A stretch of DNA of 64,000 bases, from contig NZ_JACGVC010000047.1 of NCBI RefSeq assembly GCF_014077005.1, positions 62,001-126,000 of the forward strand, written 5' to 3'. Both the position numbers and the translations under genes were made by a program. Numbering within the stretch: the first letter of the stretch is position 1; every line of letters begins with the position of its first letter. The notes beneath the pieces were generated by a model. It worked only from the letters and a program-made list of their open reading frames with translations, did no database searches and had not been told where the DNA came from. This document shows positions 35,440 through 40,854 of the stretch, in pieces. The DNA is from Colwellia sp. MB3u-45. GTDB lineage: Bacteria; Pseudomonadota; Gammaproteobacteria; Enterobacterales; Alteromonadaceae.

Positions 35440-38400
35440 GTGCTTTTGCTTTTTTTCAAAAAAAAATTAATTTCTCAATTTCGTGCCATGTTTGCTGTCT
35501 TGGCTCTAGTGACTCTCCTGTACCCTTATGGCAAAATTTTAGCGTCAGAAAATAATATTAATACCCCCCCACTGAAATTTGAACGCATCTCAATTGCCGA
35601 AGGTTTATCACAGAGCTATGTTTACGATATTATACAAGACAACAATGGCTTTATATGGATAGCTACACAAGACGGTTTAAATCGTTATGATGGCAAAAAC
35701 TTCGTTTATTATCGTCACGACAGTACCGATAAAAGCTCTATTGCTGGCAACTTCATTCGCAAACTTTTTATAGATAAGCAAAATATAATGTGGGTTGGAA
35801 CAAACGAAGGATTAAGCCGTTACAACGAAGCATTAGACAGTTTTGACAACTTCTTTCATAAAACCAACGACAGTAACTCGCTCAAAGACAACGAAATTTG
35901 GGACATTTATCAAGACCAACAAAATGATATTTTAGTATCCACCAAAGAGGGTCTACATAAATACGACCAAAACAATAAAAACTTCTCTCGAATAAGAATT
36001 CGAGGTTTTGATTCGGCTTTAAGAGAAATTAAAACCATCTTTCAAGACAACAAAGGTAATTATTGGCTTGGCACTTATGATAAAGGGATATATTTAGCCA
36101 ATAGTGCACTCTCATTCGCTATTTCTTTAAGCGAGGACAATAAATGGGATTTAAAGCTCAAAGCAAATGCTCTTTATGATCTAAAGCTTATTGATAACCA
36201 ATATTGGTTAGCGACCGATAATGGACTTTATATCGTTTCAAAAGATTACAAAGTCATTAAACAATACAATGCGAACAATTTAGACAGTTCAAATAAAATT
36301 CTTTCAAACAAAGTTCGTTCTATAGCACAACTTGATAATTCAACTATCTGGCTGGGGACACCAAACGGTTTGAATAGTATCAACTTGCTTACTGGTGAAA
36401 TTACGGCCTATCAAAGTACACCACATGAAAACTCTTTATCGTTCGACCTTATTTTGAAAGTATTTAAAGACAGCTCTGACAAAATGTGGATTGGTACCAA
36501 TGGTGGTGGTATTAATACCTTCAGCTCTTTACAATTAAAAATCCACCACGGTTTATTTGATTATAATAATTCAGGTCAAGCAGTATATGCCTTTGCCGAA
36601 ACATCTGATGGGACCGTTTGGTTTACGACCGACGATGGCCAACTCAATAAAATTGATAAACTTGGTAAAATTCATCAAGCTAAGATGAAAAATGACCAAC
36701 CCATTTTTCATCTACTTGTTGATGAAAAAGATAATTTTTGGTTAAAAACAGAGCAAAGTACACCTTCTGAACCTGGACACTTATATTATTATCAAACAAT
36801 AACAGAAAAACTGACTGAACATAAAGCATGGCAAAAAAAGTCAACATATAATGATTTTAGTGATTTAATACTTGCAAATGAGCAATTGTGGTTTATTGAT
36901 AAAACAAAAAATCTATCATCTTTTAACTTAAAAAACAATAACCTACGAGAAATACAAGGCGAAAATAAAAAACATTTCACTGCAATAAAATATGATAATA
37001 ATGACAAGTTGTGGCTAGTTACTGAAGATAAGCAAGTATTATATTACAGTATTTCAACAGAAAGTTTTTCTAACACAATTACAAGTATTCCTTCAAATTT
37101 ACAATTGGGTAGCATAACAAGTATTGGCTTATCAGAGGATTGGATTTGGCTTGGGACCAGAGGACAGGGTATTGCAATTATTAATAAAAAGTCTGAGTCG
37201 ATATCAATCATAAACGAAAGTAAGCAGTTAAGTAATAACTTCATAGCCGACATTATTATAGATAATCAACAGATTGCTTGGGTATCAACCAATCGGGGAG
37301 TAAATACGGTTGACCCAAAAAACAATATAGTAAAGTCATTCAATCAAGACCTGCTTTTAGATAATAATGAATTCATGAGTGATAGCGCTATTTTGACAAG
37401 TAACGACATAATCTATTTTGGTGGGATCTATGGTTTTCATTCATTTATCCCCAGAGAGTTACTTGCCATAGAGCAAAAATTATCAGCACCTTACCTTACT
37501 GACATTTTAGTTGCCAATAAAGAAATCAGTATTTCAAATGTAGAGATTAATCGAGCAGGGGCACCTTTTACTCTGACTAGATCACCTAATATTTTGAAGG
37601 AACTAAACTTAACACATAGCCAATCTCCATTTAGTATTGAGTTCATAACACCTAATGTTAAATTATTAGGCCATTTAAAGTATCGATATCGTCTTACAGG
37701 GCTAGAAAAGCATTGGATTGATGCGGGTAAAAATAACCTACGTGCCACCTACACCAATTTAAGCCCCGGTGACTATACCTTTGAAGTACAAGCATACGAT
37801 TTACAAAACAAGCAAGAAAGTGCAATAAAAACGCTCAATATTACCATAATGCCGCCATGGTGGCTGTCAACTAGCGCCATATTTTTCTATAGCCTTATTG
37901 CGCTATTAATCTTCGCCTACATATTGCAACAGATACGCCATAAGCGTCTTTATCACCTACAAATAAAGATAAGTGAAGAACGTCTGAAGCTATCTCTTTG
38001 GGGCAGCGGTGATGAAATGTGGGATTGGAACATTAAAAGTGGAAAAATATTTCGCTCAAATATATGGGGAGTTTTAGAATTCCCGCAAGATGGTAAGCGC
38101 AATGTTGGAGCAGATCAAACCAATATTCACCAACACGATATCCCACGAGTACGGGAAGCTTTAAACCAGCATATGGAAGACAATAGCGAACACTTTGAGG
38201 CGACCTATCGTGTTAAAGATAAAGACGAAAAATGGATCTGGGTGCTCGACCGTGGAAAAATTGTTGAACGAGACGAAAAAAACAAACCTAGCCGAATGAC
38301 AGGGACCTTAAAAGATATTAGTCAAATTAAACGCGCCGATGAGCGTTTAAAACTTTTTGCAAAATGTATCGAGAATATTTCAGACGCGATTGTTATTTAT

Positions 38401-40026
38401 GACCGTCAATTTACTGTCGTAGATATCAATCAAGCATTTCAAAATATAACCGGTAAAAATAAGTTACAAATGCAAGGGACTTTACTTAATTTTGATCAAT
38501 ATCCTGATAGCTTTAATCAAAAGGTTAAACAACATTTAATGACCAAAGGTAATTGGCACGGTGAAATAAAAAGTAAACGTGACAATGGCGAGATTTATTC
38601 AACTGACTTTAATATCGATATAATTCGTGACGACAGTGGCAATATATCGCACTTTGTCGGCGTTTTTTCTGATATAACCAAGCGCAAGCAAACAGAAGCA
38701 GAATTAAGAAAACTTGCCAATACCGACACCCTAACTGGGTTACCGAATCGTGCTTATTTTCAAGTCAATCAACAAAAATTAGTGAGCAGTAAAGTCCCAC
38801 ATGCCTTACTGGTGTTTGATTTAGATAACTTTAAAAAAGTAAATGACTCATTAGGTCATGAAGTTGGCGATGTTTTGCTATGCAAAGTGGCCGAACGCAT
38901 TAAAGTTCTAGGCCGAAATCAAGATACGGTTTATCGTTTAGGTGGCGATGAATTTAGTTTAATTGTTGAGAACACCAATGATCTTCATACCATCACCCAC
39001 ATCGCTAAAGAAGTTTTAAAAGCTATTGCACTACCGCTTAGGCTTAAAAGCCAAGAAATTGTGCTTTATAGTAGTATTGGCATCGTAATTTATCCTGAAG
39101 ATGGCGCGAGTCCACAAGAGCTCCTTAAAAATGCCGATACGGCCATGTACCATGCGAAAAATACGGGTGGTAATAAATACCAATTTTTCAGCGACTCAAT
39201 GAATAAAACCGCCGTTAAACGCCTGCAAATAGAAAGCTTAATTCGGCACGGATTAAAAGAAGATTTATTTTCGGTTTTTTATCAACCAAAAATCGAGATT
39301 GCAACAGGAAAAATAGCAGGTATGGAGGCCTTAGTTCGCTTTGAAACACCGAATAAAGGCATAATAAGCCCAGTCGTCTTTATCCCTGTGTCAGAAGAAA
39401 CAGGGCAAATTATAGATATTGGTGAGATAGTTTTGCGCAAAGCATGCTTTGCCACTAAAAAGTGGGTCGATACCGGACTTTTTGACGGACGTGTGGCGGT
39501 TAACCTTTCGGCGGTGCAGTTTACCCAACCAAATTTGGTGGCAATGATTGCTGATACGTTAAAAGAAAGTGGCTTACTGGCAAAATATCTTGAGCTAGAA
39601 ATCACTGAAGGCACGGTAATGGACTCACCACAAAAAGCGATTGATACTATGTTACAAATTCGTGCGATGGGCATCCATTTATCACTGGACGATTTTGGTA
39701 CGGGTTATTCTTCACTGGCCTATTTGAAAAAATTCCCCTTAAATACGCTAAAAATAGACAAAGCTTTTGTTGATGATATAGAAACCTCAGAGCAAGGACG
39801 GAATATGGTGGCAACAATAGTGACTATCGCGCATAACCTAGGTATGCAAGTGGTCGCAGAAGGCGTTGAAACCAATCAGCAATTGAGCTTTTTGTCTGGC
39901 TTACGTTGCGAGCAATTACAAGGCTACCTTTATAGTAAACCGCTACCTAAAGGTGACTTCCAAAAGTATTTGCTTTCTTTTCAAATTGCCAATAAATCTA
40001 CTTCATTTGGAAAAAATGCCATTTAA
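35440..40026 (+). CDS. two-component-propeller sensor with PAS, GGDEF and EAL domains
   Basis: This is a 1528-aa membrane sensor for cyclic di-GMP turnover. An N-terminal hydrophobic segment (about 17-35) acts as signal or anchor. Residues about 45-690 are propeller repeats of the type IWIATQDGLNRYDGKNF, MWVGTNEGLSRYN and MWIGTNGGGINTF. A Y_Y_Y domain (about 725-800) includes YRLTGLEKHWIDAG. A membrane helix lies near 806-830. Two PAS domains follow (about 844-965 and 969-1085), then GGDEF with intact GGDEF near 1167, then EAL with EALVRFE near 1294, DDFGTGYSSLAYL and AEGVET. Both catalytic domains look intact. The start is GTG. The domain layout suggests a periplasmic ligand controlling cyclic di-GMP; the ligand is unknown. 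Confidence 0.93.
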   Translation: MLLLFFKKKLISQFRAMFAVLALVTLLYPYGKILASENNINTPPLKFERISIAEGLSQSYVYDIIQDNNGFIWIATQDGLNRYDGKNFVYYRHDSTDKSSIAGNFIRKLFIDKQNIMWVGTNEGLSRYNEALDSFDNFFHKTNDSNSLKDNEIWDIYQDQQNDILVSTKEGLHKYDQNNKNFSRIRIRGFDSALREIKTIFQDNKGNYWLGTYDKGIYLANSALSFAISLSEDNKWDLKLKANALYDLKLIDNQYWLATDNGLYIVSKDYKVIKQYNANNLDSSNKILSNKVRSIAQLDNSTIWLGTPNGLNSINLLTGEITAYQSTPHENSLSFDLILKVFKDSSDKMWIGTNGGGINTFSSLQLKIHHGLFDYNNSGQAVYAFAETSDGTVWFTTDDGQLNKIDKLGKIHQAKMKNDQPIFHLLVDEKDNFWLKTEQSTPSEPGHLYYYQTITEKLTEHKAWQKKSTYNDFSDLILANEQLWFIDKTKNLSSFNLKNNNLREIQGENKKHFTAIKYDNNDKLWLVTEDKQVLYYSISTESFSNTITSIPSNLQLGSITSIGLSEDWIWLGTRGQGIAIINKKSESISIINESKQLSNNFIADIIIDNQQIAWVSTNRGVNTVDPKNNIVKSFNQDLLLDNNEFMSDSAILTSNDIIYFGGIYGFHSFIPRELLAIEQKLSAPYLTDILVANKEISISNVEINRAGAPFTLTRSPNILKELNLTHSQSPFSIEFITPNVKLLGHLKYRYRLTGLEKHWIDAGKNNLRATYTNLSPGDYTFEVQAYDLQNKQESAIKTLNITIMPPWWLSTSAIFFYSLIALLIFAYILQQIRHKRLYHLQIKISEERLKLSLWGSGDEMWDWNIKSGKIFRSNIWGVLEFPQDGKRNVGADQTNIHQHDIPRVREALNQHMEDNSEHFEATYRVKDKDEKWIWVLDRGKIVERDEKNKPSRMTGTLKDISQIKRADERLKLFAKCIENISDAIVIYDRQFTVVDINQAFQNITGKNKLQMQGTLLNFDQYPDSFNQKVKQHLMTKGNWHGEIKSKRDNGEIYSTDFNIDIIRDDSGNISHFVGVFSDITKRKQTEAELRKLANTDTLTGLPNRAYFQVNQQKLVSSKVPHALLVFDLDNFKKVNDSLGHEVGDVLLCKVAERIKVLGRNQDTVYRLGGDEFSLIVENTNDLHTITHIAKEVLKAIALPLRLKSQEIVLYSSIGIVIYPEDGASPQELLKNADTAMYHAKNTGGNKYQFFSDSMNKTAVKRLQIESLIRHGLKEDLFSVFYQPKIEIATGKIAGMEALVRFETPNKGIISPVVFIPVSEETGQIIDIGEIVLRKACFATKKWVDTGLFDGRVAVNLSAVQFTQPNLVAMIADTLKESGLLAKYLELEITEGTVMDSPQKAIDTMLQIRAMGIHLSLDDFGTGYSSLAYLKKFPLNTLKIDKAFVDDIETSEQGRNMVATIVTIAHNLGMQVVAEGVETNQQLSFLSGLRCEQLQGYLYSKPLPKGDFQKYLLSFQIANKSTSFGKNAI

Positions 40027-40105
40027 ATAAAGTCGTCAACTTTATGACGCTGTAATTTTTATGTAAAAAACGTGTTAAGAGCCTTGTAAATTAAGACTTT
40101 TATTA

Positions 40106-40122
40106 TTGGCACGATTTTCGCT
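40106..40122 (+). promoter_or_regulatory. sigma-54 promoter upstream of the repeat-peptide gene
   Basis: TTGGCACGATTTTCGCT matches the RpoN consensus TTGGCACG-N4-TTGCW at every position except one T to C. The invariant GG (40108-40109) and GC (40120-40121) are correctly spaced. Transcription would start near 40133, 41 nt before the first ATG. Activation would need an AAA-type enhancer-binding protein; none is encoded nearby. Confidence 0.78.
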
Positions 40123-40134
40123 TTATTCTTGTTG

Positions 40135-40154
40135 AATTTAATTTAATTTAATTT
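40135..40154 (+). repeat. (AATTT)x4 pentanucleotide repeat at the predicted transcript start
   Basis: Four exact AATTT units lie directly downstream of the predicted sigma-54 start site and before the ribosome-binding site AAGGA (40164-40168). Slippage here would change the leader length. Confidence 0.8.
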
Positions 40155-40173
40155 AATAACAATAAGGAATACC

Positions 40174-40425
40174 ATGCTTAGTTCATTAATTTTATCTTTT
40201 GCAATGTCTACCACTCCTGCTGCAAATGTTGACACATTCACAATTGAAGAAGTTGGCACAAGACGTACTCAAGTTCGCATCAACACTCAAAAATTGACGG
40301 TTGATGAAGTTGGCACAAGACGTACGCAAGTTCGCATCAACACTCAAGAATTGACGGTTGATGCAGTTGGCACAAGACGTACGCAAGTTCGTATTGGCAC
40401 CAGACGCACCCAAGTTCGCATATAG
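40174..40425 (+). CDS. small internally repetitive basic protein with GTRRTQVRI cores
   Basis: This is an 83-residue protein I do not recognise. Residues 1-20 include a short hydrophobic stretch (SSLILSFAMSTTPAAN) that could be a leader or weak membrane-targeting segment. The rest is built from a 19-residue unit starting EVGTRRTQVRI: two full units (26-44, 45-63), one partial (64-74) and one bare core (75-83). The four cores start at G28, G47, G66 and G75. They are identical in protein and nearly so in DNA. It has a good AAGGA ribosome-binding site and a sigma-54 promoter, and is followed 8 nt later by a second small ORF. It could be a secreted or processed peptide precursor, a nucleic-acid-binding peptide, or a structural peptide; nothing decides between these. 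Confidence 0.72.
   Translation: MLSSLILSFAMSTTPAANVDTFTIEEVGTRRTQVRINTQKLTVDEVGTRRTQVRINTQELTVDAVGTRRTQVRIGTRRTQVRI
40249..40422 (+). repeat. in-frame 57-bp tandem repeats inside the small protein
   Basis: Two 57-bp units (40249-40305 and 40306-40362) are nearly identical. They are followed by a 33-bp partial unit and a 27-bp core. Third-position changes are few in the first three cores and more frequent in the last (GGCACCAGACGCACC), suggesting recent duplication of the first units. Confidence 0.85.
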
Positions 40426-40433
40426 GAGGCTTT

Positions 40434-40538
40434 ATGATTAATTTAATTAAATCATTATTTATGACTGCGAAGACTGAAAACACTATTGCGGCAAGCATCG
40501 AAATAAAAGAAATGCCTGCAAGTACTTGGTGGAATTAA
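40434..40538 (+). CDS. 34-residue peptide ORF downstream of the repeat protein
   Basis: This short ORF starts 8 nt after the repeat-protein stop. A perfect AGGAGG (40424-40429) lies 4 nt before its ATG, a strong sign of real translation. The product begins MINLIKSLFMTAKT, an amphipathic, slightly basic segment, and ends MPASTWWN. It has no internal repeat and no family that I know. The pair probably shares one sigma-54 transcript. Confidence 0.6.
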   Translation: MINLIKSLFMTAKTENTIAASIEIKEMPASTWWN

Positions 40539-40650: not shown

Positions 40651-40854
40651 TTATGCTGGAAATAACAAGCAATCAAAACCAAAACGCTGGTATATCTTTA
40701 CACGTTTTTTCATGCAGAACATGGGCCAAACAAAAGGACCAAACATTAAACCGGCTATTGCCCATCGCTTTATACCTAAGCCACTACTGATGGCCTGGCA
40801 ATAAAAAAACAAAGAAAAAACAACGCTTAATACCCCGCTGAATAACAAAATCAT
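40651..40854 (-). CDS. small two-helix membrane protein of unknown function
   Basis: This is a 67-residue ORF converging on the sigma-54 locus. Residues 2-22 (ILLFSGVLSVVFSLFFYCQA) and about 30-48 (WAIAGLMFGPFVWPMFCM) are hydrophobic. They are separated by SGLGIKR and followed by a basic tail, KKRVKIYQRFGFDCL. The positive-inside pattern predicts both ends in the cytoplasm. The sequence resembles small conserved hypothetical proteins of marine gammaproteobacteria as I remember them, without a known role. The ribosome-binding site is weak. Confidence 0.6.
   Translation of the reverse strand: MILLFSGVLSVVFSLFFYCQAISSGLGIKRWAIAGLMFGPFVWPMFCMKKRVKIYQRFGFDCLLFPA

Follow-up and report, generated by a model that had tools for sequence, protein, structure and literature searches.

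A predicted sigma-54 two-peptide unit in Colwelliaceae and a proposed peptide ligand for the adjacent propeller GGDEF-EAL sensor

Introduction

What is the function of two very small peptides that are encoded one after the other behind a predicted sigma-54 promoter, and which protein do they work with? This question is raised by a locus of Colwellia sp. MB3u-45 that lies within a stretch of 64,000 nucleotides, referred to here as the window. The promoter, the two open reading frames (ORF1 and ORF2), and their gene neighbourhood were compared among relatives. The large sensor gene upstream is the likely partner of the peptide pair and gives it a likely function. The features described below lie on the plus strand unless stated otherwise.

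The sigma-54 site and its conservation

The predicted sigma-54 (-24/-12) promoter is located at 40106..40122 (TTGGCACGATTTTCGCT) and ends 51 nt before the ATG of ORF1 at 40174. It has the GG and GC dinucleotides of a sigma-54 site at the -24/-12 spacing in a TGGCAC/TTGC context, with one mismatch to TGGCACN5TTGCW. The sequence agrees with the earlier note on this DNA, which had described an RpoN site with one mismatch and exact GG/GC spacing ahead of an 83-aa repeat ORF. Judged from the window alone, the match is within chance. The window contains 44 matches with at most two mismatches (42.2 expected), and the stricter pattern TGGCACN5TNGCT, which was picked after the site had been seen, has one match (0.15 expected) and was equalled in 13 of 100 shuffles. 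Conservation therefore had to decide.

A total of 116 fetched loci had an ORF2 match, many of them being the same place fetched twice. Ten loci were removed because ORF1 or the site was not recognised by the rule (contig edge, Ns, or another start), and the removal of duplicate sequences left 68 distinct loci, nearly all from Colwelliaceae, for which GG and at most three mismatches were required and GC was not. All 68 loci have the site, ORF1, and ORF2 in that order. The GC, which was not a selection criterion, is exact in all of them, and TGGCA is present in 63. The site has one mismatch in 34 loci, two in 24, and three in 10; shuffled upstream windows reached three mismatches or fewer in 0.7% of trials. 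The distance from the site to ORF1 is 52-90 nt with a median of 61. This conservation at the sequence level settles the question and confirms the predicted site as real. The earlier note had proposed a sigma-54-type promoter before a two-peptide unit and had held that relatives lacking the joint conservation of promoter and ORFs would speak against it; in these relatives the three elements are kept together.

The palindrome CGTCA-N6-TGACG at 40034..40049 (no strand assigned), found by eye, is a candidate activator site, and several relatives have it in the form TGTC-N8-GACA (by eye). The genome of the window encodes 11 Sigma54_activat proteins, and the candidate activators include relatives of FlrA, FlrC, PrsR, GlrR, NtrC, and PspF (names by our reading). 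The target site of QseF/GlrR is TGTC-N10-GACA (PMC8745638). The half-site spacing here is N8, and QseF/GlrR was rejected as the activator by the published motif. The combined pattern of palindrome and sigma-54 site, searched in eight genomes, found the ORF1 locus in two (G007 and G474) and one other place in G163, and a reversed control matched once in G467. Five of the eight genomes, among them that of the window itself, gave no match because their palindromes deviate, and no regulon emerged from this search. Many relatives also have a second hairpin (AAAGCCTTATAAACAAAGGCTTT type, by eye) immediately 5' of the -24 element, which is probably the terminator of the sensor gene.

The two peptides

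ORF1 (40174..40425) encodes the 83-aa repeat peptide that is the proposed ligand precursor. It consists of MLSSLILSFAMSTTPAANVDTFTIEEV and then four copies of the unit GTRRTQVRI, located at 40255..40281, 40312..40338, 40369..40395, and 40396..40422. Acidic spacers separate the first three units, and units 3 and 4 adjoin. Basic units with acidic spacers occur in ORF1 of many species, and the repeat itself changes completely among relatives (GTRPGTVRI, GKSHGKVRI, ARRNVRM, SQKRRESRI, AKGRGVKV, GDNRIRIQPA, and others). The number of units varies from one (L061; genus g13) to eight (L208), and ORF1 of L061 is 47 aa long with one full unit. The N-terminus stays hydrophobic. Its first 14 residues are uncharged in 64 of the 68 loci, and export of ORF1 therefore appears less certain in Colwelliaceae than elsewhere.

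Units were compared within 16 genes of the genus (216 unit pairs; the single-unit L061 contributes none). A unit was counted if it fitted GT[RK]xxxxR[IL], which excludes tails such as DTSRNEISI. The pS between units of one gene is 0.375, and all counted units of one gene have the same amino acids; the within-gene pN of 0.004 comes from multi-step paths between arginine codons and not from amino acid differences. The pN between the first units of different species is 0.248. These substitution patterns indicate that the repeat units are under protein-level selection, constant within species and changed between species. The synonymous sites differ while the unit protein is identical, so the copies are not simply recent duplicates.

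ORF2 (40434..40538) encodes a conserved 34-aa peptide that ends in STWWN (MINLIKSLFMTAKTENTIAASIEIKEMPASTWWN). Its Shine-Dalgarno sequence AGGAGG (40424..40429) overlaps the stop codon of ORF1, and its start lies 8 nt past that stop, as the earlier note had described. The pN/pS of ORF2 is 0.157 among 17 species, which points to selection at the protein level for this peptide also. Five loci of genus g52 (L123, L124, L125, L126, and L129) have ORF2 twice in tandem 3' of ORF1.

With a cut-off of E<=0.001, the ORF2 profile matched 61 of the family's 196 genomes; within the genus, ORF2 was found in 17 of 17 genomes. One of the 61 (G058) is doubtful, and its weak match, which lies far from its sensor, was treated as chance. 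A search of named genomes gave 34 loci from Colwellia, Cognaticolwellia, Thalassotalea, Thalassomonas, Litorilituus, Pseudocolwellia, and some bins named only Alteromonadaceae. One of these loci (L091) is labelled uncultured Oligoflexia and has the Colwelliaceae gene order with the pair; the label is probably a binning error. In an order-level sample of 295 genomes, the profile found no ORF2 relative outside the family better than E 0.005. ORF2 was seen only in Colwelliaceae and in family f20, where an ORF2-like peptide was found by its position, so the profile misses distant ORF2 relatives.

The earlier note had known no family for either peptide, and likewise no Pfam or NCBIfam family was found above cut-off for ORF1 or ORF2. 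A weak NCBIfam match was the TQQ peptide NF050041 (E 0.013). It scored 15.4 bits, below the curated cut-off of 50 bits, and identity with the TQQ RaS-RiPPs was rejected.

The upstream sensor and the gene neighbourhood

The gene at 35440..40026, which the earlier note had passed over, encodes a sensor of 1528 aa that is the proposed receptor. Its layout, taken from Pfam, AlphaFold2 (AF2), and membrane segments identified by eye, consists of an N-terminal signal or anchor, a periplasmic double beta-propeller with Y_Y_Y, a membrane segment, and PAS, GGDEF, and EAL domains. The Pfam domains over cut-off are Reg_prop, Y_Y_Y, PAS, GGDEF, and EAL, and inspection by eye found both the GGDEF and the EAL motif intact. 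The AF2 model of residues 26-812 has a pLDDT of 88.3 and a pTM of 0.85. Its best PDB match is the periplasmic domain of BT4663 (4a2m/4a2l), with a query TM of 0.75-0.77, a target TM of 0.79-0.81, and 26-27% identity. By its Pfam domains and its fold match, the protein is a Reg_prop/Y_Y_Y periplasmic sensor (HTCS-like). The periplasmic placement of the propeller follows the precedent of the family. The proposed ligand-specificity region is the hypervariable stretch of the propeller (aa 281-762, 36280..37725), and the cytosolic PAS-GGDEF-EAL part (aa 850-1501, 37987..39942) is the proposed c-di-GMP output, which also served as the control in the tree tests below.

The gene order M16 peptidase, sensor, peptide pair, fadJ, fadI, and moxR is stable. 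Among the 34 named loci, the sensor is directly upstream in 31, fadJ is present in 33, and the M16 peptidase in 26. Two of the three sensor-less loci (L079 and L083) are cut off at their start by a contig edge. The third (L086, Colwellia sp. C2M11) is a real exception, with the pair and fadJ and no sensor in 8 kb upstream, and is the one such case among the 32 loci with enough upstream sequence. A 67-aa ORF resembling a membrane protein (KRWAIAGLMFGPFVWPMFCMKKR) lies on the minus strand at 40651-40854 between ORF2 and fadJ; it has a counterpart in 23 of the 31 named loci examined and no Pfam or NCBIfam family.

The gene of the M16 (insulinase family) peptidase lies just 5' of the sensor (L061 79-2910 and counterparts). 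This peptidase could degrade or trim the peptide; its gene also adjoins fadJ in places without sensor and peptide. No maturase or peptide exporter was recognised among the conserved neighbours of the 34 named loci, as judged from cluster sequences of which only some are annotated. This absence bears on the alternative that the pair is a modified ribosomal peptide (RiPP) or a bacteriocin with its maturation genes elsewhere. The conserved leader-like N-terminus, the repeated cores, and the weak match to NF050041 would suit such a product, whereas the missing neighbours and the unreached cut-off of that family speak against it, and we consider it improbable.

Distribution of the peptide and the sensor

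The sensor was found in 92 of the 196 genomes of the family (propeller query, E<=1e-60). In genera without a convincing ORF2, the DNA 3' of the sensor has a sigma-54 site (one or two mismatches) and a peptide of 44-64 aa in 14 of 14 genomes. These peptides mostly have a signal-peptide-like start (MLKAYAMALVLTTAAPVADKA..., by eye) and often end in KPGSVRI, RPGTIRI, or GVRAGTVRF; in the Alteromonas-type genera (g5, g9, g14, g24) it is the C-terminus that varies. One of the genomes (G015) has no fadJ in the 1.8 kb 3' of the peptide. Seven further genomes of the family that were taken later have the peptide in five, and the two without it belong to genus g3.

The converse was examined in 25 genomes listed without a sensor match, in 24 of which fadJ was located. 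Six of the 24 have the cytosolic end of the sensor beside fadJ (52-67% identical), and four of these six have the site and a peptide, with repeats in two of them (five copies of ISKPGGVIR in G031 and two copies of KKGWKRGGVIRLP in G019). The other two (G026 and G028) have neither site nor peptide. The 18 fadJ genomes without such a sensor showed no such peptide behind a sigma-54 site at up to two mismatches in the fadJ flank, of which about 1.5 kb was covered (less in G016 and G035). A sigma-54-like site with two mismatches is present in three of the 18 (G045, G017, and G035), with no such peptide after it, and another three (G010, G053, and G203) have the M16 peptidase gene in the fadJ flank instead, as if sensor and peptide had been gained or lost together.

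Outside the family, the two genomes of f20 have the sensor, the site, repeats of RVIIRY or RIPVRF, and the ORF2-like peptide, which ends in WWA. Two genomes of f7/g129 have the sensor followed by repeat precursors with RGTKVDPQSxLA or ARGVDPRLATAHN (L173 658-1336; L198 3' of the sensor). In the complete case (G431), the RGTKVDPQSxLA repeats follow a signal peptide that looks canonical by eye, and there is no sigma-54 site; the other precursor runs off its contig and its start position is ambiguous. The peptides of Alteromonas-type genera and of f7 look exported from their N-termini, and this compartment fits a periplasmic propeller. A class-level search of 369 genomes with the propeller profile (E<=1e-70) matched three, each of them from the same family, and found nothing further. 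Sensor matches in f12 and f14 end in AraC-type domains and were rejected as orthologues. The second sensor-like gene of G101 and the contig end of G189 have no such peptide.

Among the sensor loci examined in those genera of the family that do not bear ORF2, 23 of 27 have a peptide. The peptide gene is conserved beside the gene of the proposed receptor, with the exceptions of G002, G088, G026, G028, and three genomes of f7/g58 in which no peptide was recognised. Gene content across these genomes indicates that the peptide tracks the sensor more closely than it tracks fadJ.

Matched evolution of unit and propeller

Differences among Colwelliaceae affect on average 57% of the positions in the propeller and 10% of those in the EAL domain. 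The window and its nearest relative L061 have 89-99% DNA identity over 16 kb except in the propeller and ORF1, with 51-66% in the propeller core and 41% (length gap included) in the ORF1 bin. L061 and a third species (L063) have propellers with 94-97% identity, whereas the two are 64-92%, mostly 80-90%, identical elsewhere. The near-identity of these propellers against a divergent rest indicates that propeller cassettes have moved between species.

L061, L062, and L063 have no Q at position 6 of the unit and have one type of propeller in common. These three species had been seen before the Q label was chosen, and G163 and G007 were then predicted to join L062. Both did so. G163 / L208 is closely related to L062 in any case, which makes G007 the more telling test; the three other new species carried no prediction.

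Maximum-likelihood trees of the propeller and of the cytosolic part were compared for 17 species of one genus. The Q/not-Q character requires one change on the propeller tree (support 100/100), and 0 of 500 shuffles were as low. It requires four changes on the cytosolic tree, where 88-93 of 500 shuffles were as low and a single clade was rejected (AU p 2.5e-6). Parsimony over all variable unit positions needed 22 changes when the propeller tree was used, against a mean of 27.4 in shuffled data (p=0.001), and 27 changes, as in shuffled data, on the cytosolic tree (p=0.51); the difference between the two trees has p=0.004. The unit GTRKDQVRI is the same in L065 and L217, and their propellers, which differ by 23%, are related. 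The cytosolic part of L217 is nearest to that of L062 (2%), yet their propellers differ by 44%. The distance tests were weaker. A whole-unit test of 11 taxa gave r=0.11 (p=0.17), a test of 17 taxa given the cytosolic distance gave p=0.094 (Hamming) and p=0.037 (BLOSUM), and the tree-based tests followed after these weak or absent signals. In the sensor, 48 positions distinguish Q-type and not-Q-type species completely, and every one of them lies in aa 281-762; 29 are in loops, 14 in strands, and 5 in helices, against a background of 237, 213, and 32. Unit type and propeller type are thus inherited together against the rest of the gene in one genus, as judged by the trees and more weakly by the distances.

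These results bear on the alternative that no functional link exists, the gene order being simply old and the tree match a product of recombination by linkage. The order from the M16 peptidase through the sensor and the pair to fadJ and fadI is indeed old and stable, and the sensor occurs without the peptide in four genomes of the family. However, the cytosolic coding region lies between the propeller and ORF1 and follows a different tree, so simple linkage does not explain the match, and no such peptide was seen next to fadJ in any of the 18 genomes that lack the sensor at this place. This alternative appears very improbable.

A second alternative is that ORF1 is a surface or matrix repeat protein that co-varies with the sensor since both face phages or competitors. 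The matrix is often under c-di-GMP control, and the basic units with acidic spacers of many species would fit such a protein. The 47-aa ORF1 of L061 with its one full unit and the single-motif peptides elsewhere fit it poorly, as does a switching that is matched to the propeller specifically, and we give it a low probability.

Discussion

The simplest reading of the sensor and ORF1, as suggested by the comparison of their sequences, is that of a receptor and its ligand. ORF1 is probably the precursor of a peptide ligand that is read by the propeller and that would couple a species-typed peptide to c-di-GMP. The precursor with its four copies of GTRRTQVRI would be expressed from the sigma-54 promoter, delivered to the periplasm or beyond, and processed into single units. 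The hypervariable part of the double beta-propeller would recognise the peptide, and binding would set the balance of the GGDEF and EAL activities of the sensor and hence the c-di-GMP of the cell. The peptide and the propeller specificity would evolve as a matched pair that is exchanged between species, like the pherotypes of peptide quorum sensing.

The same adjacency and co-inheritance would be expected if ORF1 were a periplasmic subunit or brake of the sensor of the same cell that is not released, with the repeats providing avidity. This is a same-cell version of the ligand reading, so the likelihoods given to the two overlap. Types that pass from one species to another are typical of signalling between cells, which speaks against a subunit, and the identical units in copy numbers of one to eight fit release as single units at least as well. 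A precedent for a subunit is found in DbfQ, which acts in this way for DbfS (PMC12714742), and the lack of a peptide exporter among the conserved neighbours also favours it. We regard a subunit as rather unlikely.

A wider form of the ligand reading is that of a Gram-negative peptide pheromone, in which a sigma-54 precursor with several peptide copies would serve a double-propeller receptor that lies outside the inner membrane and itself makes and breaks c-di-GMP. A linear peptide would then be read without a kinase or a response regulator, and species would swap pherotypes when the propeller cassette and the repeat gene recombine. We put this wider form forward tentatively, as less likely than not.

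Agr and ComQXPA have a hypervariable sensor domain matched to a hypervariable peptide, a conserved output domain, and an exchange of alleles between strains; they are histidine kinase systems with dedicated peptide-processing enzymes. The locus in this work is similar in its variable sensor domain with a matched variable peptide and a conserved output, and differs in that no dedicated processing enzyme was recognised beyond the M16 peptidase gene that adjoins the sensor. Phr peptides re-enter the cell and target the cytoplasmic Rap proteins of Gram-positives, whereas the proposed receptor here is a membrane double-propeller GGDEF-EAL protein. The Rap-Phr systems of the Bacillus subtilis group are likewise composed of a short peptide gene with its receptor gene, and they diversify and move horizontally, and some of their precursors carry several identical or similar autoinducer copies (PMC5199041). 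DbfQ of Vibrio cholerae (PMC12714742) is a small periplasmic protein that is encoded beside its sensor and binds the sensory domain, in a pathway that affects biofilm and c-di-GMP; the small gene beside a sensor gene is common to both loci, and DbfQ acts on a two-component histidine kinase, unlike the proposed peptide here. The abstract and section headings of that paper mention neither repeats nor species-typing. The likeness concerns working for Rap-Phr and position for DbfQ, and the locus is not known to be homologous to either.

The nearest solved propeller relatives sense glycans, heparin and heparan sulphate in the case of BT4663 according to its PDB entry title, which counts against a peptide ligand. 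The modelled periplasmic part resembles BT4663 (PDB 4a2l and 4a2m) in fold, and the protein differs from this hybrid two-component protein in its GGDEF-EAL output and in the neighbouring peptide gene. No description of this peptide-sensor module was found in open-licence papers.

If the ligand reading is true, an otherwise odd sigma-54 two-peptide unit would be explained, and a ligand would be proposed for a group of propeller GGDEF-EAL sensors. The natural matched and mismatched pairs would let the specificity be mapped. Peptide signalling is known mostly from Gram-positives, and the module would then represent family-wide peptide signalling in marine Alteromonadaceae that is wired straight to c-di-GMP.
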